From a virus: a stretch of DNA of 30,235 bases. Positions within the stretch are counted from its first letter, which is position 1. Every line of letters starts with the position of its first letter. Under the pieces are notes generated by a model. The model did not search any database, was not told where the DNA came from, and was given only the letters and a program-made list of their open reading frames with translations. The stretch covers positions 1-30,235 of the IMG/VR virus record IMGVR_UViG_3300032048_000225; one strand, 5' to 3'. Of the stretch, positions 6,765 through 29,988 are shown in pieces. A program made the translations under genes and the position numbers.

Positions 6765-7757
6765 TCAGGTGTTATCACCGATTGACGATGACGACTCGAT
6801 GCGTCGCAAACATTCTTGCCGGAAGATCTTCCATCCAGCAAGGTGATACCAGCCCACAGGGTTGAACCGACGCAGAGTATCAGTCACAGGACCGAATACG
6901 ATGCTTGGTTGCTCGCCAAAGCCTGGTGCACGGCTGAAAGCCTTTGCCAGAGCTTGACGACCAGCAATAATGGTCTGGTAAACGTTGGTTGTACTGGTAG
7001 CACCAGCATCATTCAATATGGGAGCCCGAGGGTTCTCAATGTAGTTGATACCGTTGAACGTGCCGATCGAGCCTGCACGAATCGGTGCACCGTCTTGGTA
7101 CAACTGGTATTGGATAACGTCAGTTACCGCTGTTTCTCCACGGAGGTCATAGGAAACATCCGGGTGGATGATTGCCATATAGTTTCCGTTTTCCCAGCCG
7201 GGAGCGGAGTCGCCACGTAGCTGGGCTACAGCTTGACGTGGTGTAGTGGTGTCATACGTATTGGCGTCAGCAACAGTGACACGGGACGTAGGTTGTGCAC
7301 CCGATCCCTTGGAGTAAAGGACGTAATCAGCAGTACCAGCCATAGCAGCATCGGAAACAACTTTGTCGATTGAATCGACCATGTTGTAACCAATAATGTT
7401 GGCGGCGTCAGCATCAACATTCAAGAATGAAGTGCCTCGGATCAAAGCAGTCGTGATGACCGAGCTACCATACTCAGCCAAAGAAACATCTACTTTGGAG
7501 TCGGAGAGAGCAACAGGTGTAACGTCTGTCGCCTCAGTAAGTGTTCCGGTAACCTGATCCATATTTGGATAGAACGTGAACTGAACAGTAGCCGCATTGT
7601 GGCTCTGCGCAGTTGAACGAACATCTGCAAGCATCTCATAGAGAGGTTGTGAACGTAAGGCAAAATAGGCGATCTGTTCGAACGCCGTAGTTACCTGGTT
7701 CGTTAATTGACCAGTCCCGGTTGGGTTAGTTAAGGATAGAGGTGGTGTATAAGCCAC
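6765..7757 (-). CDS. Major capsid protein, N4-gp56 family (330 aa)
   Basis: The sequence matches the N4-gp56 type of HK97-fold capsid protein: a hydrophobic start with TTAFEQIAYFALRSQPLY, the conserved VQFTFYPNMDQVTGTLTEATD region, VSLAEYGSSVITTALIRGTS, a long helix NIIGYNMVDSIDKVVSDAAM, YMAIIHPDVSYDLRGETA, and GRQALAKAFS near the C-terminus. About 330 residues is normal for the family and leaves no room for a scaffold fusion; scaffold is supplied by the gene immediately upstream. Start is GTG. Its weak AGGAC ribosome binding site lies within the 3' arm of a perfect hairpin, described separately. The shell is formed from several hundred copies of this product. Confidence 0.93.
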   Translation of the reverse strand: MAYTPPLSLTNPTGTGQLTNQVTTAFEQIAYFALRSQPLYEMLADVRSTAQSHNAATVQFTFYPNMDQVTGTLTEATDVTPVALSDSKVDVSLAEYGSSVITTALIRGTSFLNVDADAANIIGYNMVDSIDKVVSDAAMAGTADYVLYSKGSGAQPTSRVTVADANTYDTTTPRQAVAQLRGDSAPGWENGNYMAIIHPDVSYDLRGETAVTDVIQYQLYQDGAPIRAGSIGTFNGINYIENPRAPILNDAGATSTTNVYQTIIAGRQALAKAFSRAPGFGEQPSIVFGPVTDTLRRFNPVGWYHLAGWKIFRQECLRRIESSSSIGDNT

Positions 7758-7760
7758 AGT

Positions 7761-7780
7761 GAGTCCTATGGTTAGGACTC
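7761..7780 (-). promoter_or_regulatory. Perfect 8-bp hairpin covering the capsid gene ribosome binding site
   Basis: In the 41-base gap between scaffold and capsid genes the sequence is GAGTCCTA, a four-base loop, then TAGGACTC, a perfect 8-bp inverted repeat. On the minus-strand mRNA the 3' arm contains AGGAC, which is the only Shine-Dalgarno-like stretch before the capsid GTG, and ends three bases from that start codon. A hairpin here would hide the site until opened, for instance by ribosomes finishing the scaffold gene. That would adjust the scaffold to capsid ratio. A protein-bound operator or an RNA processing site are alternatives. Confidence 0.55.
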
Positions 7781-7798
7781 CAACGACTTAGCGAACGG

Positions 7799-8275
7799 TC
7801 AGGTAGCTGCGCCCCACAAGATACCATTCGACTCTAACAACGCCCGAAGCTCATCTTCGTTATTCGTTGCTTTAATTTGTGAGTCTAAATCAGGTGGTAA
7901 CACCGGATCTCCACCTTCACCCGCCGCTTGTATTCGCTGCTCCGCACTCAACATATCGTTGAACACAGAATTTTGAGCTACAGGTGCATCAGCACCCAAG
8001 AACCCTGCCGCCGTAGCTTCCTGACGGATAGCCTCAGCATCGAGTTCACCTTCATAGCCCTTCACGAAATACCTAACACGTGCGTCATCAGGATCAAGTC
8101 CTGCTGAACGAAATGTGTCACGCCGCTGGATAGACGAAAGCTCTAGTTCTAAAGTCGCAGCTTTTTCTTCTGCTTCCTTAGCACGAGTTTCGAGTTCCCG
8201 TCGCCAGTTGGGTTTCGATTCGGTTGAACTGCCAGAACCTATTTCACTGTCGCCAATGGAGTCGGAATCTGTCAT
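7799..8275 (-). CDS. Capsid scaffolding protein (158 aa)
   Basis: Size, charge and position are those of a phage scaffold. It has a Ser/Asp/Glu-rich disordered start (MTDSDSIGDSEIGSG), a coiled-coil region from about residue 24 (RRELETRAKEAEEKAATLEL), a DPDDARVRYFVKGYEG segment and an acidic helical end (DLDSQIKATNNEDELRALLE). Scaffold helps the capsid protein form a procapsid and then leaves. The gene is directly upstream of the capsid gene. ATG is preceded by GCAGGTGAGTGACAT, a good site. No protease motif is visible. Confidence 0.85.
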   Translation of the reverse strand: MTDSDSIGDSEIGSGSSTESKPNWRRELETRAKEAEEKAATLELELSSIQRRDTFRSAGLDPDDARVRYFVKGYEGELDAEAIRQEATAAGFLGADAPVAQNSVFNDMLSAEQRIQAAGEGGDPVLPPDLDSQIKATNNEDELRALLESNGILWGAAT

Positions 8276-12040: not shown

Positions 12041-15000
12041 TCATGCCGCTCTACTTACCCCTAGTTGATACGCCTTTTGGTTCTTAGGCCAAGACGTTCG
12101 GAAAATCACATCATCTTGATCCAAGTATCTCACAAATATGGATGCCATATCTGGAACATTAGAAAAGGCGATACGGGCAGATTCCCATTCCTCTTTCTTA
12201 TCTTTATTAGTCGGATGCGAAAGTAATTGCATCTCAGGGTCACCACTTTGTTGTGAACGTTGCAGCAAGATACCAGTGATCTCGTCACGTTTTTGGAGAT
12301 AAGCCACCATATGCGGCTGCCCAGGATGCCATCCCGATATCTCTATATTATTAACCCAGTTTCGCAGGCTATGAATTACCTTCGAGTTTTCTTCTGCCGT
12401 TTTAATATCATTAAATTGCTCTTTCCACAAAGGAAATTTGTTACCGATCTTCTGGATAATCATTTGCCTAGCCTGTTTCAAATTTATATTAGCTTTTGCA
12501 TTCAAACTTGACGGCAAACCAGACAGTCGAAGCTGTTCTTGTTTCTGACGAATCGGCTGCATTCCTCTTTCATACCAGAACCAACCCGCATTACCAGCAG
12601 CCCGTTCCGCTGTTTCTTTAGGCGTCTGATAGGTACGGCGTCCCTCCCCAATTTCTTTTCTATAAACGGTATTACTGAACGCTATATCCGATGCCATCAA
12701 AACATCGGTCGGTCCAATCTTCCCTACCAAAAGATCTGAGATAGATAAGTTATCGAGGAAGAACTTTGGATTATCTTCATATTGCTCTTCACCAAATAAT
12801 GTTGCTGAGGCAAGGGCACCTTCTGTTACACGAGTTTGTCTACCAACAACACCCCAGAAATCTGGGTTCTGAATCAGTAACCATTCGTCAGCAGCATGGA
12901 GCCCTTCTTCTTCCATAATTTTTTTGTAATTTGAAATTACATGTGCATGTGGAGACTGATACATAAACGAAATTGGTGACATGAGGTTGGCAACCATGCG
13001 AAGACGCATCATTGCTTTAACTCGTTCATCAACTTCATCTTCAAATGCAGCTAAATCGGAAGGCGATTCGATCGCTTCACCATTAAGTTCATATTCGACA
13101 ATCATGTCCGACGCCACACGGGCACGTACCCTTTGACGTTCATATGTGCTGAACATGGCACTTCGAGCAGTTTGTGTCCAAAGAGGTGTGACCGAATCCG
13201 TAAACCGTTCAAAAATATTGCCCCCCTCCGCTAACCCGTAAGGGAATGCCCAGTCAAGCGATTCGGTTACGCTTGGGACTTGAACGGCGGCTTCACTAGC
13301 AGCAAAAGCTACAAGAGGGCCAAACCCTGGTAATCCGCCTGACATCATAGACATCGATGACAAGTTTAATTTGATTGGGTTATCACCAAGTTTGCCGAAA
13401 CGTCCAAACAGTTTTTGATCTCCAACAAGAGGAAGCCAACTAGGAGCTTCTGCTCCAAGAATTGTTCCGAATCTAAGCAAGAATAATGGTGCACCTGTTT
13501 CTTCATCTACAGCATTGAAATTTTCAAGACCGTTATGGAAGTTACGTGTAGTAGCAAGAACAAACCCTGGGTTGCGTACAGATAAACCTGCCCACCGTGT
13601 AATCACTTCTTGATACGCAGCAAAGAACGGCATCACATTAGCCATCAGTTCTTCAAACTTTGTGCGTTCAGCTAAATCGTAAAGAAGATCTTTAGTTTTT
13701 CCAAGGGCTACCCGACGGGCTTCTCCCTCGATAGCATTCAAATCTTTTTGGGTAAGACTGTATGATCCATCACTGTTCTTAAAGTTTGGTATACGTCTAG
13801 CAACTTCGGAGCTATACACACTCCTGAATACAGTGCTTCTAGTAAGAAGATCCGTTGGCATTGTCCCAAGATGCTGGAATGCGTTATCAGTCCACCGTTT
13901 AATTCTTACAATCATTCCACCTGTTTTGTATGCGTCTTCTAAAGCCGAATCACCGATAACGAATCCAAAATCCCCAAATCCATGAGGGTTTGCAGCATTC
14001 CCGGTCATTCTGACTTGTGCAACACTCCCACCGAACTGTCGATCCACAATCGGTTGGATGTCTCGTGCCCATTTGATTTCATCACCTTGGGCCATCTTCG
14101 CTCGCACATGAGCAAATTCAGCTATAGGAGGTACAAGGTTGTTTGTTTCATAACGAACCTGGGCTATCCACTCGTTAAGTGAATGAACATTATCGGTGAA
14201 ATGTGCAGGCATTGCATCTTGCAACACATGTCCATCACCAAAAGAAAGCCAGTGAAGAATATCGTCATCGGTAACATTATCTAACCAAAATAAACGGGTG
14301 AACTCTTGGAAAGGATTCCCCTGCGAATACGCAATCCCACTATTTTCACGCCACCATTTAGCATCAGCAAACGCTTCTTCGTTTTGCTTTTTCCCAATAT
14401 CAACTGTTCCAACAGCATCAACAGTTACAGGGCCTCGTTCCCCAGCCCAATACATTCCAGCTTCCTCAAACTGCTGACTTGCTTCCCATGATGCTCTCTG
14501 CAAATTAACAAACTCATCTAACTCTGCAGGAGTTAAATCAGCATCATCCCACTGCAACGAACCATATTTGTCGTTAAGTTTTTCAACAACTACCTTAAAT
14601 TCTTCTTGAATCTGGTTGAACTTCACTCTGCTATCAGCCATTTGGATAGTCTCATTACGAGGCGCAAAATGGCCTGGACGAGAATAAGCACCTGGATCTT
14701 GCATCGGTACCCACTGATGATTAACTGTATCGTCCCACGCATCAGTAAATAATTTAGGATCTCTAATCCCACCAGGAAGGTTTAGAATATCGTATTGCTG
14801 TCGAGAAGACTGGCGAATAGTTTTACGAGTTACCGCACTCGTACTATTCCAAAGAGCACTCTTATACTGATTCGCTGACATCGAATTTCTATTTATCTGA
14901 ATTGCTTGGGGAGTATTCCCAAAAGCATTTCCGATATTCAATCCATCTAAATGGAAATCAGACACACCGGCATCAACCATAATTTTGCCAGCCGTATCGA

Positions 15001-18000
15001 AGTTCTGGACAATAGTGCCTTCACTATATGCCTGGATACTTTCGCTAGCATTATCAATTTCTTGTTTCCGTGCCTCTAATTTTTTACGCATTTGCCCGGT
15101 GACTCGATCACGCAACGTAAACTGATCTTGCATCTGTCTTGCTTGTGTCAAAAGAACGCTTCGACCGTCTTCTAATTTTTTGGCATTCTCAATAAGATTC
15201 GCTATTTGCTCTTTGTTTTTAACGGGATCAAGTTTTAGTAATTGTTTTTCGATTCGTAGTATCTCATTATTAACTTGATGGCGACCTATTTGACTTAACG
15301 AAAACCCCATATGGTTAAGAGTTTCGAGTTTCGCTAATCGTTGCATAGAACCACGAGAATACAATCCGTACATAGCTGCCCCAACAAGTCCAGCAGGACC
15401 AGCTAACCACGCACCCATCGCAGAAGCACCCATTACTCGTCTACGAATTTTTTGTTTCCCATATTCCTCATAAATAACTTCTTTAACAAGATCTTGTAAC
15501 CGTTTCTCATCACCATCAAAGTGTTTCGTTATTGCTTGGAGCAATTCATCACTATTAGCAACATCGGCACGTACAGGCCGTAACCCTGTCCCCGGTAACT
15601 CAATTTTGATCTTGGCATCATTAAGAACAGAACGCATCTTTAACTGAAGCGGTTTCGCTAAATCAAATCCTTCTCGTTGAAATAGTCCGGCACGCAAATC
15701 CCCAAGCCCACCAGCCACACCTTTTAGCGCAGTCATTGTTCCGTAATCAGCAGAGACACGCATAAATTCGTCAGTGAGAACTCTGACAGGCCACGCTGGT
15801 CGCAAAAGAACTGACTTTTTCCAAAGAGTTGTAAACACATCCAGTGTCATTCCGACACCATCTCTAACTCCCAATGCAGCTTTCATCACTTTGCTTTGAT
15901 CTGTGAATGCGTTCGCATACAAGTCATAGCGAGGGATAAGTGTTGCTTCTGCTAATTGTGGAGGAGTTAGTGGAAGACTACGAACATTGATAACCCGATT
16001 CTCGTCCATACTAAAAGTACGAATTTGGTTGTTGCCATAGAGTTTGGCCTCTGAACCCATCCGAGTAAGTTCTTTTTGAGCCGATCTCCAATTACGTCGC
16101 AAAATGCGTGTTAGCTCAGCGGAAGACGTATTAATAAATTTGCCGTCTTTCCATTGACCAATACGGTTCGCAAACATTTTGCCAAGAGAACTATTCAAAG
16201 TCTCAACTGTTTCATTAAACAGTTGTTGCCTTGCCTGCCTATCAGGATTCGAAACCCATCTACCCAAAATTTCTTCTGAGTTTAATCCCGCAAATTCGAC
16301 AAGGTTCTGGTCAACAAGATCAGCGTTTTGATAAAATCTTGGTCTTACCCGAGAAGCGTCACGAAGCATACGCTCAAATTGTTGATATGCGTCAACAGGT
16401 TTATCCCAATGGATAAGTCCTTGCGTAACTTTTTCAACAAAATAACGAACACGAATATTCGGCATTTCTATTGGGAATCCAGTTTTCTTTTCAAAAGTAT
16501 GAACGAACTCCTGAACATACCCTTGTTCACCAAAACTTCGTCCTACTGCCCCTATCCCTCCACTAATGCCCCCAGAAAATTCGTTAAATCGGCTAACCCC
16601 TGGGACTCTTTCTAACGCTCCAACATTAGGAATATGGCGTTCGATTAGATCGTTTGCGACTGCTTCTACAAGTTTTTTGTTATTGCCACTATTCAAAGCA
16701 TCGTAAAGAGCTTCAACATTTTCGTGTTGCATGTCACGAAAATCTTTACGTCGAGCAGCGTTTTTCAAACGATGATCTTCAAATATCAAAGCAGCAGCAA
16801 ACGGCATCTCCGGGTACTCAGTCATGAGCTTGTTTTCAATTTCTCGTTGACGCCTAAGTAACTCATTGTCACCTAACGCTTCAAAGATGCGTCCTGTCGG
16901 GGAATTCATACGCGGATTTCTAACATTATGCACAATATTTTGCACACGTTCTATATTGGCTAATCTAACGTCGTCTACCGGTACCCCATCTTGGTACCAA
17001 GCATTTTCGTAGATCCATCCTTCAGTTATTGGTGGCGAGTTGGGATCTGGTATGAAATGACCACGGACAACAGGTTCTCCTAGTACCCGTTTTTCTGGAA
17101 CCCAGATATCTTGTGGTCGATTGAATTCAGAATGATCTGCCAGATCAACCCATTCGCCTGTTGCCTTATCTAAAACTTTCATACTTTCATCGTTTAGATT
17201 AATCTTGACAAGAATATTTTCTTTACCTGGCTTCGAATACCAAGACTTCATTTCAGGCTTGATTTCGTCAATCAGACTCCGCCGAAAAGCAAGCTGATTG
17301 ACCAAAGGAATTTCTGCAGGTGTCAGCGTAGGACGCCGCATAGCAAAGTGGTATGCCGCTCTTTCTGCAGATTGGCTTTGCAAACCACCAATTCCTTCAT
17401 CCGCATACGGTGACCGCTGCCATACCGGATTACCTGTTTCGTCTATTACTTGGTTACCAAATTCATCTAGTTGTGGACGTTCATATTCGCCGGGATCGGA
17501 TCGCCGTATTTCGTGTCGTTCTGCTAAGAGTTCCCGTATAGTATTTGCCCCTACCCGAATGTCGCCTACTTCGTCGGCTCGTAGGTCCGAGAAGTCTGCT
17601 GGAGCTTCACCGAATTTGGATTCGAGTATTTCGTCCCAGTGTCCAGAGTATTTAACGAAGTCGTCGTATTCGTCAATATGACCTAAAACAGAACCACGTC
17701 GGGTTCTAGCAAAAGTGGTTTTCAAATCAACGCCTGTTTCGGCTAACTCGTTAGCTAAATCCCAAAAGCCTTTGAGTTGTTCTTGTGAACTAAGTGCTGC
17801 CCATGCGTTTTCTGCTTCATCTATCCCAGTTTTCCCAGTTACGTTTTCTTTTAATTCTCGAAACTGGTATGGAGTAGCTTCATCTATCCATCGTCTATAT
17901 TCGTCACGAAGAGATCCAGCCGTAATCCTATCCTTTGGAAGTTCGCTAAAAGCCTTTGCTCCTATTCGACCTCCTTCCAAAAGAGTTTCTGCGTCACGTA

Positions 18001-20908
18001 TCACATCTTTAGTAGCTTGAATATCGTCTTTTTGTGCTTGGGTACGTCTTCCCCAAACTTTGTTTTGTCTACTTTGAAGATCAGCTAACTCATCTTTAAC
18101 TTTTTTGAGTTCCTTCGGTGTAAGAAAATCAGGATTATCTTTCAACGTCGGGTCAAACGAATCTATAAGTTCGAATTGTGCCTCATCACTTAACTCATCA
18201 AAGCTTCTACGAACTTTCAACCCTCCAGCTAAAGCAGGATGATCAGCAACAATGTCTCCCCAACGACTCACCCACTCAAAAGATACATTAAGACGATTTG
18301 TCTCTACATCGTCAATAAATTTTTGCCAGTGAGGATCAAGACCATCCTCAGGTGTTAGCTGATGCGTATAAGGACGATAATTAACGTCCTCATACCAGTC
18401 ATTTGTTTCACGATACTGTCGAGGGGGAGCCCACCGTTTCACAACTCTCTGAAATTCTGGGATAGCAGACTGTGTTTCTCTTGCCTCAGCCATTTCATCA
18501 GGAATTTCGTCAAACTCAGGTTCTTCAGTCTTCCGAATTTTTCCAGTTTCAGGATCGGGTCGTTCAACCGTCCTCATAATTTGATTGCCCTCAACATCAA
18601 GTTTCGGGGCTTGCCTCGTTTTAACACCGACACGGCTGAGGGCTTCATAGATTTCGTCGATAACTGCCAACGCTGCTTCGGTTGGTTTCCCACGACCCCA
18701 GTTAGGTGAATCTGGTGTCTGATAGGAAGGTCTATCAAAGTCTCGTCCGCCTGGCACACGATCAATAATTTCGTCAATCGACAAACCAATGTACGGGTGA
18801 AGATCTTTAGGTAAAAGTTTTTTAAGTTCAACGACTCGTTGTTGTTCGCTAAGGTTTTTCCACTTAGCAAAGTCGTCGCTTTCCCCAGGCATTCTAGCTG
18901 TAGCTAATTCTTCTTCTGTCCACTGTTTATTGAGATCATCCCATAAACGTTTCCACGCATTATCTTGAATATTTCCGGCAGCGGTAACAGTGGCATTCAG
19001 GTTAGGTGCTCCACGTACCCGAGCATCCGTAGCCATAGGCCGTCGCCCTCGACGTACCCGTTTCGTAGAAAGCACACCTTTTTTTCTCAGTAAAGATTTC
19101 TCTAAACCTCCACGTGGAAGTTTAACTGGGTCATCACCAAGCATTTCTTCCATTGCGTCAAGCATTCGACCGACACCTTTATTACGCAACCGTTGAGATA
19201 TCTCAGGGTCACCCGGTCGGTAAGCGCCACCTTTATTTCGGTGACCTATACGCGCAGTTTCTATAACATTATTAAGAGCAACATCGGTTTGAATTAACTC
19301 ATCCCAATTTTTTTGAAATGCTTCTCTCGCTATGGTATCTCCTACCGGTATGCCTGCCCAATGAAGCAAATTGTTTCGGTCTGTATCAGATAACTGAATC
19401 CAAGGTTTATCTCGGAGGTAGGCTTTATCTGTAGTTGTTGTTCTGAACCAACGAAAAAAGCCTTCCCCTACTGGATCAACTAAAGAAGCATCGGCTGGAT
19501 TAAATCGAAGCCCTAAATCATCAGCAGCTTTTCGTGCATCAGTAACAACAGCTTGTCGGGCACGATCAACTTGGCCGGGGGTGACACGTTCACCCAAAAC
19601 AACTCCATCGAAAAGATCGACAAGAGTTTTACCTTCCATGTCAATCATGCCTCTAAGAAATTTGAGGTTGTCTACCGTTTGGGCACGTTGAGGATGTAGA
19701 GCTTTACCTTCTCGATCAGTTAAACCGTCTTCTAACTTTTGAATATATTCGTCAATCGTGAGAGGTTTACCGTCCGGTCCCATTTTGAGGTAGTCATCAA
19801 TATCTTTAGTTACGAAAGCAAGTTCATCTTTTAACCCACCGTTCTCCCAAAGATCCTCGACATACGTTTGAGCTTTTTTTTGCAATTTTTCAAAGACTTT
19901 GGCATGTCCGCCGCTATCCGCAAGCAAACTAATAAACATGTCGATACCATCACCATGTTGTGCTGCAAGGGAAAGAGCTAACTCTGGGTTTGTCATACCC
20001 GACATCAAACGCCCTAAACGGCCTTTATCTGCTGCCTTTTTAATTCGTACACCCAGTATGCCTATATTCAACATATCTGACTGCTCGAAACCTTGACCTG
20101 ATTTATATGTTTCTGAGAAATTCAAAAACTCGTCGGGCTTATCAGAATATATTGCTGTGTCTTTAATCTCTTGAAGCCGTTCTTTGAATATGCGATATTG
20201 GCGAGTCTCTAATGCTGCACCGGAAGCTAAAAGTTTGGCGTTTCTTGTACGCTTAGCTTGTTTAACAAGCTTTGCAAATCCAAACGCTGCAAGGTTCGCC
20301 GGATCAAGAAACCAGTTTGAAAAAAGATCAACTGATCCTGACAACAAATTGTAATATGGTGTCCCCTCAAATCTTTCTACATCATCAGGATTATCGAGAT
20401 TAATATTTTTTGAAAGCAACGCAACTGCTTGTCCCCAACTTCGTGAACCCGTTGCTTCCCATGCTTCTGCCCACGAACTTGGATCGACAACGGTATGGAT
20501 ACCGTCGTTAGCAACCATGTTCGCATAAGTAACAAATGTTCCAACAGGGCGATCTACCCCATATTCGTAAACAAGGTCAAGGGCCTCCATCGCGGGATTA
20601 AGAATTTTGGTTGCTGGTTTCCGTACAGTCTCAGGAATACTCCCAAAGAAATGTCCGCCGAATGCGGCATTCGGGTTACCATTTTCATCAAATTCGTCAG
20701 GTCCGAAAAGGCTTTGTATCACACCACCTTCGCCAAGAACGTTATCTTGCCAAGATCCCCAAACAGTATCTAAAACTCCGTTGCCTTCGAATTTGTCGGC
20801 ACCGGTTAAACCTTCATGGGCAATATCAAGAAAAAGGTCAACCGTTTGGGTTGTCGCATTAAACAGCCCCTTCGCCATTCCTTCTAAACGACCAATCGGA
20901 TTAACCAT
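12041..20908 (-). CDS. Giant virion-associated protein, probable ejection/internal protein (2,955 aa)
   Basis: This one frame takes 29 percent of the window without interruption. It starts in a TAATG overlap with the small gene after portal. No signal peptide is seen. Most of the chain is charged and helical, with many YEW-type aromatic positions. Near residues 1826 to 1853 there is a Gly/Ala-rich hydrophobic stretch (GAWLAGPAGLVGAAMYGLYS) able to enter a membrane. Near residue 2424 is MPFFAAYQEVITRWAGLSVR followed by NPG, which I recall as a conserved piece in other very large phage virion proteins. I can name no catalytic motif (no lysozyme, protease or ADP-ribosyltransferase signature that I trust). 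Size, position after portal and the membrane-active segment suggest a protein ejected with DNA, like internal proteins of podoviruses. Confidence 0.8.
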   Translation of the reverse strand: MVNPIGRLEGMAKGLFNATTQTVDLFLDIAHEGLTGADKFEGNGVLDTVWGSWQDNVLGEGGVIQSLFGPDEFDENGNPNAAFGGHFFGSIPETVRKPATKILNPAMEALDLVYEYGVDRPVGTFVTYANMVANDGIHTVVDPSSWAEAWEATGSRSWGQAVALLSKNINLDNPDDVERFEGTPYYNLLSGSVDLFSNWFLDPANLAAFGFAKLVKQAKRTRNAKLLASGAALETRQYRIFKERLQEIKDTAIYSDKPDEFLNFSETYKSGQGFEQSDMLNIGILGVRIKKAADKGRLGRLMSGMTNPELALSLAAQHGDGIDMFISLLADSGGHAKVFEKLQKKAQTYVEDLWENGGLKDELAFVTKDIDDYLKMGPDGKPLTIDEYIQKLEDGLTDREGKALHPQRAQTVDNLKFLRGMIDMEGKTLVDLFDGVVLGERVTPGQVDRARQAVVTDARKAADDLGLRFNPADASLVDPVGEGFFRWFRTTTTDKAYLRDKPWIQLSDTDRNNLLHWAGIPVGDTIAREAFQKNWDELIQTDVALNNVIETARIGHRNKGGAYRPGDPEISQRLRNKGVGRMLDAMEEMLGDDPVKLPRGGLEKSLLRKKGVLSTKRVRRGRRPMATDARVRGAPNLNATVTAAGNIQDNAWKRLWDDLNKQWTEEELATARMPGESDDFAKWKNLSEQQRVVELKKLLPKDLHPYIGLSIDEIIDRVPGGRDFDRPSYQTPDSPNWGRGKPTEAALAVIDEIYEALSRVGVKTRQAPKLDVEGNQIMRTVERPDPETGKIRKTEEPEFDEIPDEMAEARETQSAIPEFQRVVKRWAPPRQYRETNDWYEDVNYRPYTHQLTPEDGLDPHWQKFIDDVETNRLNVSFEWVSRWGDIVADHPALAGGLKVRRSFDELSDEAQFELIDSFDPTLKDNPDFLTPKELKKVKDELADLQSRQNKVWGRRTQAQKDDIQATKDVIRDAETLLEGGRIGAKAFSELPKDRITAGSLRDEYRRWIDEATPYQFRELKENVTGKTGIDEAENAWAALSSQEQLKGFWDLANELAETGVDLKTTFARTRRGSVLGHIDEYDDFVKYSGHWDEILESKFGEAPADFSDLRADEVGDIRVGANTIRELLAERHEIRRSDPGEYERPQLDEFGNQVIDETGNPVWQRSPYADEGIGGLQSQSAERAAYHFAMRRPTLTPAEIPLVNQLAFRRSLIDEIKPEMKSWYSKPGKENILVKINLNDESMKVLDKATGEWVDLADHSEFNRPQDIWVPEKRVLGEPVVRGHFIPDPNSPPITEGWIYENAWYQDGVPVDDVRLANIERVQNIVHNVRNPRMNSPTGRIFEALGDNELLRRQREIENKLMTEYPEMPFAAALIFEDHRLKNAARRKDFRDMQHENVEALYDALNSGNNKKLVEAVANDLIERHIPNVGALERVPGVSRFNEFSGGISGGIGAVGRSFGEQGYVQEFVHTFEKKTGFPIEMPNIRVRYFVEKVTQGLIHWDKPVDAYQQFERMLRDASRVRPRFYQNADLVDQNLVEFAGLNSEEILGRWVSNPDRQARQQLFNETVETLNSSLGKMFANRIGQWKDGKFINTSSAELTRILRRNWRSAQKELTRMGSEAKLYGNNQIRTFSMDENRVINVRSLPLTPPQLAEATLIPRYDLYANAFTDQSKVMKAALGVRDGVGMTLDVFTTLWKKSVLLRPAWPVRVLTDEFMRVSADYGTMTALKGVAGGLGDLRAGLFQREGFDLAKPLQLKMRSVLNDAKIKIELPGTGLRPVRADVANSDELLQAITKHFDGDEKRLQDLVKEVIYEEYGKQKIRRRVMGASAMGAWLAGPAGLVGAAMYGLYSRGSMQRLAKLETLNHMGFSLSQIGRHQVNNEILRIEKQLLKLDPVKNKEQIANLIENAKKLEDGRSVLLTQARQMQDQFTLRDRVTGQMRKKLEARKQEIDNASESIQAYSEGTIVQNFDTAGKIMVDAGVSDFHLDGLNIGNAFGNTPQAIQINRNSMSANQYKSALWNSTSAVTRKTIRQSSRQQYDILNLPGGIRDPKLFTDAWDDTVNHQWVPMQDPGAYSRPGHFAPRNETIQMADSRVKFNQIQEEFKVVVEKLNDKYGSLQWDDADLTPAELDEFVNLQRASWEASQQFEEAGMYWAGERGPVTVDAVGTVDIGKKQNEEAFADAKWWRENSGIAYSQGNPFQEFTRLFWLDNVTDDDILHWLSFGDGHVLQDAMPAHFTDNVHSLNEWIAQVRYETNNLVPPIAEFAHVRAKMAQGDEIKWARDIQPIVDRQFGGSVAQVRMTGNAANPHGFGDFGFVIGDSALEDAYKTGGMIVRIKRWTDNAFQHLGTMPTDLLTRSTVFRSVYSSEVARRIPNFKNSDGSYSLTQKDLNAIEGEARRVALGKTKDLLYDLAERTKFEELMANVMPFFAAYQEVITRWAGLSVRNPGFVLATTRNFHNGLENFNAVDEETGAPLFLLRFGTILGAEAPSWLPLVGDQKLFGRFGKLGDNPIKLNLSSMSMMSGGLPGFGPLVAFAASEAAVQVPSVTESLDWAFPYGLAEGGNIFERFTDSVTPLWTQTARSAMFSTYERQRVRARVASDMIVEYELNGEAIESPSDLAAFEDEVDERVKAMMRLRMVANLMSPISFMYQSPHAHVISNYKKIMEEEGLHAADEWLLIQNPDFWGVVGRQTRVTEGALASATLFGEEQYEDNPKFFLDNLSISDLLVGKIGPTDVLMASDIAFSNTVYRKEIGEGRRTYQTPKETAERAAGNAGWFWYERGMQPIRQKQEQLRLSGLPSSLNAKANINLKQARQMIIQKIGNKFPLWKEQFNDIKTAEENSKVIHSLRNWVNNIEISGWHPGQPHMVAYLQKRDEITGILLQRSQQSGDPEMQLLSHPTNKDKKEEWESARIAFSNVPDMASIFVRYLDQDDVIFRTSWPKNQKAYQLGVSRAA

Positions 20909-28071: not shown

Positions 28072-28099
28072 ACAGCTTGTCCTTATCCGCTACCTAGTA

Positions 28100-28113
28100 C
28101 CAAGAAAGGAGGG
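28100..28113 (+). repeat. Start-associated box class B, copy 1
   Basis: CCAAGAAAGGAGGG, here followed by AGCGT and ATG. It is the first of three exact copies, each acting as the ribosome binding site of one small gene. Confidence 0.75.
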
Positions 28114-28118
28114 AGCGT

Positions 28119-28352: not shown

Positions 28353-28379
28353 TCGGGCTATCACATTCGCCTACGACCA

Positions 28380-28393
28380 CCAAGAAAGGAGGG
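28380..28393 (+). repeat. Start-associated box class B, copy 2
   Basis: CCAAGAAAGGAGGG again, followed by GGCGT and ATG. With the first copy it shares a wider frame: both have CCTA a few bases upstream, or a variant of it, and GCGT directly before the start. Confidence 0.75.
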
Positions 28394-28398
28394 GGCGT

Positions 28399-28581: not shown

Positions 28582-28603
28582 CCGTCCTATCCGACCTCTA
28601 CCT

Positions 28604-28617
28604 CCAAGAAAGGAGGG
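28604..28617 (+). repeat. Start-associated box class B, copy 3
   Basis: A third exact CCAAGAAAGGAGGG, followed by AACC and ATG. The upstream bases (CTATCCGACCTCTACCT) echo the ones before copies 1 and 2. Confidence 0.75.
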
Positions 28618-28621
28618 AACC

Positions 28622-28876
28622 ATGAGTACAGAACCAACTGTTGCGGACGTATTTTGGGCACAGATTGCTCGTGTCGAAGCTATCAAGTTAGCTAAGGACG
28701 AGCTTCTGCCACGCCTAGCACAAGCGTTCAATACTCGTACGAAAGATGAATACATTGCTCTCGAAGACGAGTACTCGAAGCTCTGCGACGACTTCGAAGC
28801 AGCCAACAAAACGGTTTGTATGACACTTCAAGATTCGCTGAACCGCAGTCCTGAAATGTACAACCGTCCAACTTAA
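28622..28876 (+). CDS. Helical protein of unknown function (84 aa)
   Basis: ATG (MSTEPTVADVFWAQIARV) follows a class B box at four bases after the GGG. The frame is open upstream, but that part overlaps the zinc-ribbon gene and has no better site. The protein is helical and amphipathic (AIKLAKDELLPRLAQAF, DEYIALEDEYSKLCDDFEAA) with two isolated Cys. It resembles a small helical bundle. No family is recognised. Confidence 0.7.
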   Translation: MSTEPTVADVFWAQIARVEAIKLAKDELLPRLAQAFNTRTKDEYIALEDEYSKLCDDFEAANKTVCMTLQDSLNRSPEMYNRPT

Positions 28877-28936
28877 CCGGATACCGGTGCGGGGCCACGG
28901 CTCAGGTCGTGGTCCCAACTCCAGCTATCCGGCTGG
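28877..28936 (+). ncRNA. Structured leader element 1 with two exclusive folds
   Basis: Outer arms CCGGATA (28,877 to 28,883) and TATCCGG (28,926 to 28,932) enclose a 9-bp hairpin, GGGGCCACG with CGTGGTCCC and an eight-base loop. The right outer arm also fills the loop of a second hairpin, CCAGC/GCTGG (28,921 to 28,936), so outer stem and 3' hairpin exclude each other. It lies between the 84-residue gene and the SLOG-like gene. No tRNA-like arms or U-run are present. I read it as a cis-acting leader; the type used here is the nearest available. Confidence 0.45.
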
Positions 28937-28944
28937 ACAATATC

Positions 28945-28956
28945 CCTTGAAAGGGG
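28945..28956 (+). repeat. Start-associated box class C, copy 2
   Basis: CCTTGAAAGGGG followed after eight bases by the ATG of the SLOG-like gene. CCCT and AGGG within it can pair around TGAA, which would cover the ribosome binding site. Confidence 0.5.
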
Positions 28957-28964
28957 ACAAAACC

Positions 28965-29561
28965 ATGTTCAACCTTAAGACAGACGAGGTTACAGGGTCC
29001 AACGAAAACACCACAGACGAAAGGATTGAGACTGTGGATATTATAGAAAGCGCCTTCCAAGGTGCGACAAATGAAAATACCCAAGCGATTGAGGAAGCTC
29101 TTAGCGAGCCGACTGATCGTCCGTTTAGGTTACTAATCAACGCTGATTGGGACTTCGCTACGACAGCAGAGGATGATATGAATCTGCTGAAAGAAGCGAA
29201 GCGTATGCTCTCGGAGCGTGTCGAGAGTGGTCAAGAAGTTGAGATTGTGACCGCAGGATACCGAAGAGGTTCCTCCAACATGGTGGAACACTTTGCGACA
29301 CTGTTTGTTGCGGACCATGACATGATAACGCACCGTGTTGTGGAACCAACGAAGCCAGGTGAGTCACGTGAGCGTATGGATACCTACCGACGCAACCGTT
29401 TCCTCGCTAGGTACTGTGATGCTGCGTTGCTGTTCAAGGCAAGCACTGAAGAAAACCGTATGTCACAGCATATGGACACGTGCTTCCAAGAATGGACACC
29501 AGCTAGTCGTAACGGGCAAGCGAAACGAGTTGTTGTTAAGACTCGTGAGCAACTGTCCTAA
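28965..29561 (+). CDS. Probable SLOG-superfamily (DUF2493/YspA-like) protein (198 aa)
   Basis: I choose ATG (MFNLKTDEVTGSNENTTD) after the class C box. The first 50 residues are acidic and disordered. From residue 53 comes a Rossmann-like core: PFRLLINADWDF (first strand and the D of the family's G-x-R-x-F/D turn), a helix LLKEAKRMLSERVESGQ, EVEIVTAGYRRGSSNMVEHF (the V-x-G-G-A-R-G-A-D site with changed Gly), and YRRNRFLARYCDAALLFKAS, equivalent to R-N-x-x-M-x-x-x-A-D-x-x-I-A-F. This order fits DUF2493-type SLOG proteins, which bind nucleotides or related ligands. A role in sensing or removing a nucleotide signal is inference. The changed glycines lower confidence. Confidence 0.7.
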   Translation: MFNLKTDEVTGSNENTTDERIETVDIIESAFQGATNENTQAIEEALSEPTDRPFRLLINADWDFATTAEDDMNLLKEAKRMLSERVESGQEVEIVTAGYRRGSSNMVEHFATLFVADHDMITHRVVEPTKPGESRERMDTYRRNRFLARYCDAALLFKASTEENRMSQHMDTCFQEWTPASRNGQAKRVVVKTREQLS

Positions 29562-29567
29562 CGGTTG

Positions 29568-29624
29568 ATTGACCGGGCCTCCTCGCTTTCGAGCGGGGGG
29601 GCCTAGCCAGTCAATTCGGACTGG
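29568..29624 (+). ncRNA. Structured leader element 2 with two exclusive folds
   Basis: ATTGAC (29,568 to 29,573) and GTCAAT (29,610 to 29,615) enclose a 12-bp hairpin (29,576 to 29,587 with 29,592 to 29,603; two G-U pairs) capped by TTCG. The right outer arm overlaps a second hairpin CCAGT/ACTGG (29,607 to 29,624). This is the same plan as element 1 with different bases. It lies between the SLOG-like gene and the next gene. No U-run follows the strong hairpin, so simple termination is less likely. I treat it as a cis-acting leader. Confidence 0.45.
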
Positions 29625-29640
29625 AACAGAAAGGAACACC

Positions 29641-29988
29641 GTGAACAAATGGTGCCTAGAAAACCGGAGAATAACAGTCAACATAGCGTGCCCGGAACGG
29701 GAACCGTTTGACAAATATTGTCAGACGTGTCCTCGAACTGAGCACAGTGAGCTTAGCTATGGCTATATGCCTGCTAGTCCTTACGCTGACTTCTGGCGGG
29801 AGCATGATAAACAACATTTGCGTGACAAGCGTGAGGGTGAGGTGCTCAAATTGGTGGAAGCATGTAGACGGGTCGCGAATCCAGGTGAAGAGTACTTGCA
29901 GGATTTGTACCGTACCAGGATGTTTTGGTATGACGACAGTTTGCGACGTCGTGGTCAGATGAGGAGATATGAGAAGGGAGAAAGATAA
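29641..29988 (+). CDS. Unknown Arg-rich protein with four Cys (115 aa)
   Basis: GTG follows AGAAAGGAACACC. The frame is open upstream through the structured leader, but that part has no start signal. The protein carries C5, C17, C27 and C30 (KYCQTCPRTE), a possible metal site, then HDKQHLRDKREGEVLKLVEA and a very basic helical end (MRRYEKGER). Cys spacing is not that of a standard ribbon. A nucleic-acid-binding role is plausible, but the family is unknown. Confidence 0.7.
   Translation: MNKWCLENRRITVNIACPEREPFDKYCQTCPRTEHSELSYGYMPASPYADFWREHDKQHLRDKREGEVLKLVEACRRVANPGEEYLQDLYRTRMFWYDDSLRRRGQMRRYEKGER

Follow-up and report, generated by a model that had tools for sequence, protein, structure and literature searches.

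A structured RNA element with two competing folds is repeated before early genes of marine and Streptomyces phages

Related elements of phage early operons

The RNase III sites R0.3, R0.5, R1, R1.1, and R1.3 of phages T7, T3, and phiYeO3-12 are intercistronic elements of the early operon, occurring several times per genome. Their common anatomy consists of a lower stem, often with a stop codon at its 5' foot, an internal loop, and an upper stem of 9-12 bp; a Shine-Dalgarno sequence comes after the hairpin, with the start codon about 20-30 nt on. For instance, R1.1 of T7 forms a hairpin of 60 nt whose internal loop is 4/5 (PMC6121014).

In cluster K mycobacteriophages, extended start-associated sequences (ESAS; PMC3203893) are multi-copy inverted repeats located directly 5' of the ribosome sites of non-structural genes with large gaps, and their consensus varies between subclusters. 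They accompany the SAS motif GGGATAGGAGCCC, 13 bp long and placed at the start, and their authors reported little support for RNA pairing (PMC3203893). In TM4 (L084, 20082 and 20672) and Pixie (L086, 27405), each ESAS arm is itself self-complementary (TGTTGA....TCAACA), and a long hairpin competes with two short ones. For elements of this kind, only the SAS/ESAS papers were found in the open literature on actinobacteriophages, and the Abafar paper mentions no hairpins.

The element described here is a structured coding-strand RNA; it recurs 5' of many early genes and displays two competing folds that are both selected. Fold A is a single long imperfect hairpin of about 22-25 positions, composed of a lower stem (P0), internal loops, and an upper stem (H1). 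Fold B combines H1 with a second hairpin (H2) that re-uses the 3' strand of P0; this strand constitutes the loop of H2 and part of its stem, and a few further downstream bases are required. This widespread RNA was hitherto unlisted and enlarges the repertoire of phage early operons remote from T7.

Like the T7-type sites, the element is intercistronic, belongs to early operons and is present in several copies per genome, with the same layout of hairpin, Shine-Dalgarno sequence, and start codon; in most copies the imperfect hairpin spans roughly two helical turns and has an internal loop between its upper and lower stems, as T7-type sites do. It differs from them by its phage lineage and by its internal loops, which are mostly symmetric and not of 4/5 nt, and the refolding hairpin H2 is absent from the T7/T3 sites. 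With a covariance model built from 17 T7-type sites (R2), the best element reaches 11.8 bits (E about 5), whereas the sites themselves score 38-64 bits; thus, the elements are not members of that family by sequence. A 14-mer, CATTCGCAAGAGTG, is common to a marine copy (L041, 7424-7498) and T7 R1.1 (L087, 5450-5497), at the top of the upper hairpin in both, which may be a coincidence.

Two elements in an uncultured phage fragment

The window analysed is a virus record (IMGVR_UViG_3300032048_000225), a linear phage fragment of 30,235 bases whose right end carries elements 1 and 2 as the leaders of consecutive small genes. The initial annotation, made from the letters alone, had described before both genes an arm, a strong hairpin, the matching arm, and a 3' hairpin, and direct reading of the sequence retrieves this plan in both leaders (28877-28937 and 29568-29624). 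Both elements are taken from the upstream stop codon, element 1 extending from that at 28874-28876 to 28937 and element 2 from that at 29559-29561 to 29624, with the following features:

28874-28876, + strand: stop codon TAA of the gene upstream of element 1, abutting its 5' arm (read from the sequence)
28877-28883, + strand: element 1, 5' strand of the lower stem P0, CCGGATA (beats permuted flanks, p 0.012; swap rank 0.03)
28891-28916, + strand: element 1, upper hairpin H1, GGGGCCACGGC/GTCGTGGTCCC, 11 bp, TCAG loop, two G.U pairs
28920-28937, + strand: element 1, hairpin H2, TCCAGC-TATCCG-GCTGGA (3' arm beats permuted arms, p 0.005)
28926-28932, + strand: element 1, 3' strand of P0, TATCCGG, within the H2 loop
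28950-28957, + strand: Shine-Dalgarno sequence of the gene after element 1, start ATG at 28965
28965-29561, + strand: gene after element 1, 198 aa, initially annotated as SLOG-like
29559-29561, + strand: stop codon of the 198-aa gene, just 5' of the arm of element 2
29563-29573, + strand: element 2, 5' strand of P0, GGTTGATTGAC
29576-29603, + strand: element 2, upper hairpin H1, GGCCTCCTCGCT/AGCGGGGGGGCC, 12 bp, TTCG loop
29607-29624, + strand: element 2, hairpin H2, CCAGTC-AATTCG-GACTGG (p 0.007 by permutation)
29610-29615, + strand: element 2, 3' strand of P0, GTCAAT, shared with the 5' arm and the loop of H2
29629-29636, + strand: Shine-Dalgarno region of the gene after element 2, start GTG at 29641

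In element 1, the loop of H2 is complementary to the 5' arm, and fold A includes an asymmetric internal loop (7/9). In element 2, P0 may be drawn in two registers, ATTGAC/GTCAAT, with the arm ATTGAC at 29568-29573, and GGTTGATTG/CAGTCAATT, a longer register that pairs too (GGTTGATTG at 29563-29571). As initially noticed, the 3' hairpin ends shortly before the ribosome site, 12-13 nt from the Shine-Dalgarno sequence in element 1 and about 5 nt in element 2. Other leaders of the same operon (28072-28118, 28353-28398, and 28582-28621) carry no element and display plain CCAAGAAAGGAGGG ribosome sites. As some early leaders are devoid of it, the element is not required for expression as such. At the gathering score, none of the 4227 families of Rfam 15 matches the window or seven element-bearing loci.

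The outer stem and the 3' hairpin had been proposed to exclude each other, and energies computed for both folds in both elements confirm this. Fold A is predicted at -34.1 kcal/mol in element 1 and -37.7 kcal/mol in element 2, and fold B at -38.2 and -38.9 kcal/mol, respectively, fold B being thus predicted 1-4 kcal/mol stabler in the window. In most relatives, the minimum-energy fold is fold A, usually without net bulge, and in several copies both folds are near-equal in energy. The outer stem and the inner hairpin, initially treated apart, are one long imperfect hairpin with usually symmetric internal loops. The ribosome site is unpaired in most predicted folds.

The SLOG-like label given to the 198-aa gene (28965-29561) is not borne out by Pfam or PHROGs: its product falls in no curated family, a weak Cas_NE0113 match (E 0.0034) staying below the cut-off, and has no relatives in 50 related records. 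The copies of two relatives (L019 and L020) also sit before a gene that looks SLOG-like, as judged by eye.

Copies in marine relatives and cultured Streptomyces phages

For the 643-aa terminase of the window, 155 relatives were found among IMG/VR contigs, and 80 of them were retrieved; PHROGs recognises both this terminase and the major head protein. Among isolates, Streptomyces phages constitute the largest group of distant terminase matches (29/43, about 28% identity). The early proteins of the window have no homologues in the 80 loci by tblastn; orthologous leaders of its own genes are thus not alignable.

The expectation of more copies before other small genes is borne out in relatives, where the plan recurs with up to eight copies per marine phage. 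A mechanical descriptor, defined as an arm, a strong hairpin, then a hairpin overlapping the complement of the arm, has its strongest + strand matches in the window at exactly elements 1 and 2. On the early strand of 30 related records (284 kb), it retrieves 23 compound elements at a score of at least 20, compared with 1.8 in shuffles; the antisense strand gives 0 matches, and the late strand or operon 6 vs 2.5 in shuffles. In five records (L041, L045, L056, L058, and L063), two to eight copies are present per record; they precede the opening genes of the early operon and are absent before later early genes. Marine copies come in two sequence flavours, exemplified by CACTAGG-TTGTGCTTT-GGACATTC-GTGA-GAGTGTCC-TTAGTA-GTGCCTAGTGGCAC and by TAGCTTA..CTCGGAGCACATC..GATGTGTTCTAGG followed by ATGCTAAGCGCAT. 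More generally, among the 93 early leaders whose length was suitable, 54 have a folding z <= -2.

Elsewhere in these operons, some leaders display long near-perfect hairpins (about 15-20 bp, wide loop) without H2, directly before the ribosome site. They are located at 4315-4393 in L019, 7025-7101 in L002, and 5026-5085 in L058, counted on the early strand, i.e., the reverse complement of the first 10001 bases, and are possibly a simpler form of the same signal.

The kinship of the element extends far past the near relatives of the window phage, as its spread includes both marine uncultured phages and cultured Streptomyces Beephvirinae. The plan precedes many early genes of Immanuel3, Manuel, and FlowerPower and, in Immanuel3, most of the first ones (z-scores of these leaders being based on mononucleotide shuffles). 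In the leader of Immanuel3 gene 76, H2 reads GCGATC-CACTAG-GATCGC, and its loop is complementary to the arm CTAGTG. The analysis also took in nine more records of Beephvirinae type, Kumquat in the orthologue alignment only. The leader set was not selected for the element and comprises all 79 annotated early leaders of at least 45 nt from Immanuel3 and eight other records; of these, 51 were parsable, and in 37 an arm of at least five bases matches H2. The arm complement lies in the H2 loop in 22 leaders from a subset of 54, vs 0.7 in mononucleotide shuffles.

Evidence for selected RNA pairing

Elements 1 and 2 fold 4.0-4.7 s.d. lower in energy than 200 dinucleotide shuffles, none of which (0/200) folds as well. 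The claim that the plan is kept while bases change is upheld by orthologous Streptomyces phage leaders, in which 13 of the 19 pairs of fold A are doubly changed. In this alignment (A6, leaders before the HTH gene, seven distinct sequences), 91.6% of cells are paired; no shuffle (0/500) reaches 13/19 double-changed pairs, and slid partners pair at 33-50%. Leaders after the ArdA gene illustrate the same behaviour: arms (CTAGTG, CGAGT, CCAGTG), H2 stems (GATCC/GGATC, GGCCC/GGGCC, GGTCC/GGGCC), and H1 all vary, with pairing kept. In type I copies, double changes occur in 9/19 pairs (0/500 shuffles) of a structural alignment that was itself fitted to the model. Base pairing is thereby maintained between phages with terminases of about 28% identity.

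Both pairings were also evaluated copy by copy. In 37 marine-type elements, the 5' flank and the 3' arm of H2 each beat permutations, with Fisher values of 1e-28 and 3e-30 that overstate significance because they ignore the relatedness of the copies and because the descriptor served to choose some of them; the own arm of an element fits its core better than the arms of other elements (median rank 0.056). The unselected Streptomyces phage leaders give Fisher values of 1.7e-24 and 4.6e-18, again overstating independence since elements within one genome are related, and a median rank of 0.03 for own vs swapped arms. A chance origin is ruled out by the shuffle, permutation, and descriptor controls. 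A covariance model of the CTCGGAGCACATC subtype (R1) recovers just that subtype, in three phages, because the sequence changes too fast for one model.

When mismatches are counted in register, G.U exceeds A.C, with 89 vs 17 in the upper 12 positions, a count partly biased by stem detection, and 53 vs 13 at positions 13-22. This excess indicates pairing of the transcribed strand, i.e., of RNA, and not a DNA palindrome. It therefore bears, together with the compensating changes, against a DNA-level feature such as repressor operators or cassette-shuffling recombination boundaries, as proposed for the ESAS of cluster K. The element does share with ESAS its placement, and its genome-specific sequence flavours recall the consensus varying between ESAS subclusters; its matches are nevertheless found on the sense strand only, and no SAS motif is found in the window, even with up to two mismatches allowed. 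A DNA-level origin is thus regarded as highly improbable.

Equivalence with ESAS as such was rejected as well, since the descriptor shows no excess in TM4, Anaya, and Pixie and the element stands without SAS. RNA pairing, little supported for ESAS, is strongly supported by double changes in the element.

Placement and proposed role in processing

H1 and H2 are separated by 0-9 nt (medians of 3 and 5), and the end of H2 stands before the start codon at a median distance of 19 nt in the Streptomyces set and at 11-29 nt in the marine set. Where Streptomyces phages have long gaps, the arm lies tens of bases 3' of the stop codon (for instance between Immanuel3 genes 80 and 79, with a gap of 186), whereas the downstream start still stands mostly 15-24 nt away. 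The distance to the start being kept and that to the stop codon variable, the element is anchored to the downstream gene. Frameshifting or readthrough was rejected, as the downstream start has no preferred frame and the stop codon is usually inside the structure.

The initial annotation had read the element as a repeated cis-acting switch or processing element, a reading supported by the compensating changes, the extra copies, and the energies relative to shuffles. Between both, processing appears favoured. The element may thus act in cis as a processing signal of the early polycistronic message, an intercistronic punctuation in which fold A is cut and H1 and H2 cap the products; a probability of about 45% is given to this reading. 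During transcription, fold A, with its two helical turns or so and its internal loop, would form first and would be the substrate of a double-strand-specific RNase, most likely the host RNase III, as for the early R sites of T7. The 3' side would be cut, within the short linker (0-9 nt) that separates H1 from H2. The upstream mRNA would then keep H1 as a 3' hairpin, while the freed 3' strand of P0 would refold with the next few bases into H2. This hairpin, near the new 5' end of the downstream mRNA, would shield it from 5'-end-dependent decay and leave the ribosome site open. Where fold B forms first, the site would stay uncut.

In favour of this reading, fold A closely matches the T7/T3 sites in size, position, and layout, with its upper stem of 9-12 bp, and the element lacks a terminator U-tract. 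Such a cut would also account for the retention of both folds, the adjacency of H1 and H2, and the open ribosome site. Given their spacing and the median of 19 nt from the end of H2 to the start, one cut would cap both products. Stem-loops of the ompA/papA type, which stabilize messages from their 5' side, are hairpins that lie close to the mRNA 5' end and immediately precede an open ribosome site. H2 would occupy the same position after a cut, whereas in the primary transcript it is internal and competes with a longer fold. References on 5'-stabilizing stem-loops of bacterial mRNA are among those given in PMC3997798, and mRNA is reported to be stabilized both by a 3'-terminal hairpin and by one in the 5' UTR (PMC6993053). 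Several points stand against processing: as T7 sites have no H2, the cap idea is without precedent there, the model of T7 sites misses the elements, fold B is the stabler one in the window, the internal loop of element 1 is asymmetric, and some early leaders lack the element.

The near-equal energies of the two folds in several copies would also suit a bistable switch acting without cleavage. A ribosome at the upstream stop codon would cover the 5' arm and block fold A, H2 would form, and downstream expression would change. In 36 marine-type elements this stop codon lies within the 5' strand of P0 or immediately next to it, at a median of 19 positions from the H1 loop. The anchoring to the downstream start and the long Streptomyces gaps, which put the arm far from the stop, argue against this scheme, and so does the absence of an obvious output, the ribosome site being mostly free in both folds and no terminator being present. 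Such a switch is considered unlikely.

The complement of the arm frequently has its centre in the H2 loop, with a median of four of the six arm bases in the loop, and by sequence this loop-arm complement fits simultaneous pairing as well as alternative pairing. Such a geometry would be that of a loop-arm kissing pseudoknot, and this pseudoknot, or either fold, might be bound by one phage or host factor controlling the early genes as a set, as a translational operator or enhancer. The restriction of the multiple copies to early genes would agree with this. The sequences of H1, loop, and arm nevertheless vary between copies and phages, with no evident conserved recognition letters, H1 loops alternate between GNRA and UNCG types, and a full pseudoknot with zero-length linkers would be sterically demanding. 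An operator role is therefore held to be rather improbable.

An early operon that contains structured RNA and that the host polymerase presumably transcribes also evokes put-like elements, which act on the transcribing RNA polymerase by antitermination or pausing. Put-like elements generally act once, near a promoter, whereas the copies described here precede up to eight successive genes and are positioned relative to start codons. In addition, no terminators were detected nearby on the element strand, and neither element of the window is called as an intrinsic terminator (G+C-rich hairpin plus T run), terminator U-tracts being absent. This possibility is thus judged very unlikely.

Returning to processing, the element could tentatively, at somewhat less than even odds, represent an undescribed multi-copy class of phage RNA, either a processing signal whose 3' strand holds the product-capping hairpin or a bistable or pseudoknot regulator of the early regulon. 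If the processing reading is true, a single strand would contain both the site of the cut and the cap that protects its product, offering a possible part for polycistronic expression in Actinobacteria. Streptomyces mutants in rnc (RNase III), deleted in S. venezuelae, and in rnj (RNase J) exist (PMC12096830) and, as elements are present in phages grown on laboratory strains of Streptomyces, the processing question is directly answerable.

Other features of these genomes

A contig binned as a Gammaproteobacteria MAG (L093) carries a terminase 84% identical to that of the window and is probably a misbinned phage. The structural operon of the window includes a 2955-aa open frame (12041-20908, - strand), and that of Immanuel3 encodes a 1648-aa protein of unknown function. 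Finally, three relatives (L012, L016, and L017) display on the + strand, near 7628-8239, two strong hairpins that adjoin each other and are conserved, ACCTCCGG..CCGGAGGT followed by CTTCYACG..CGTRGAAG, located on the late strand upstream of the terminase.
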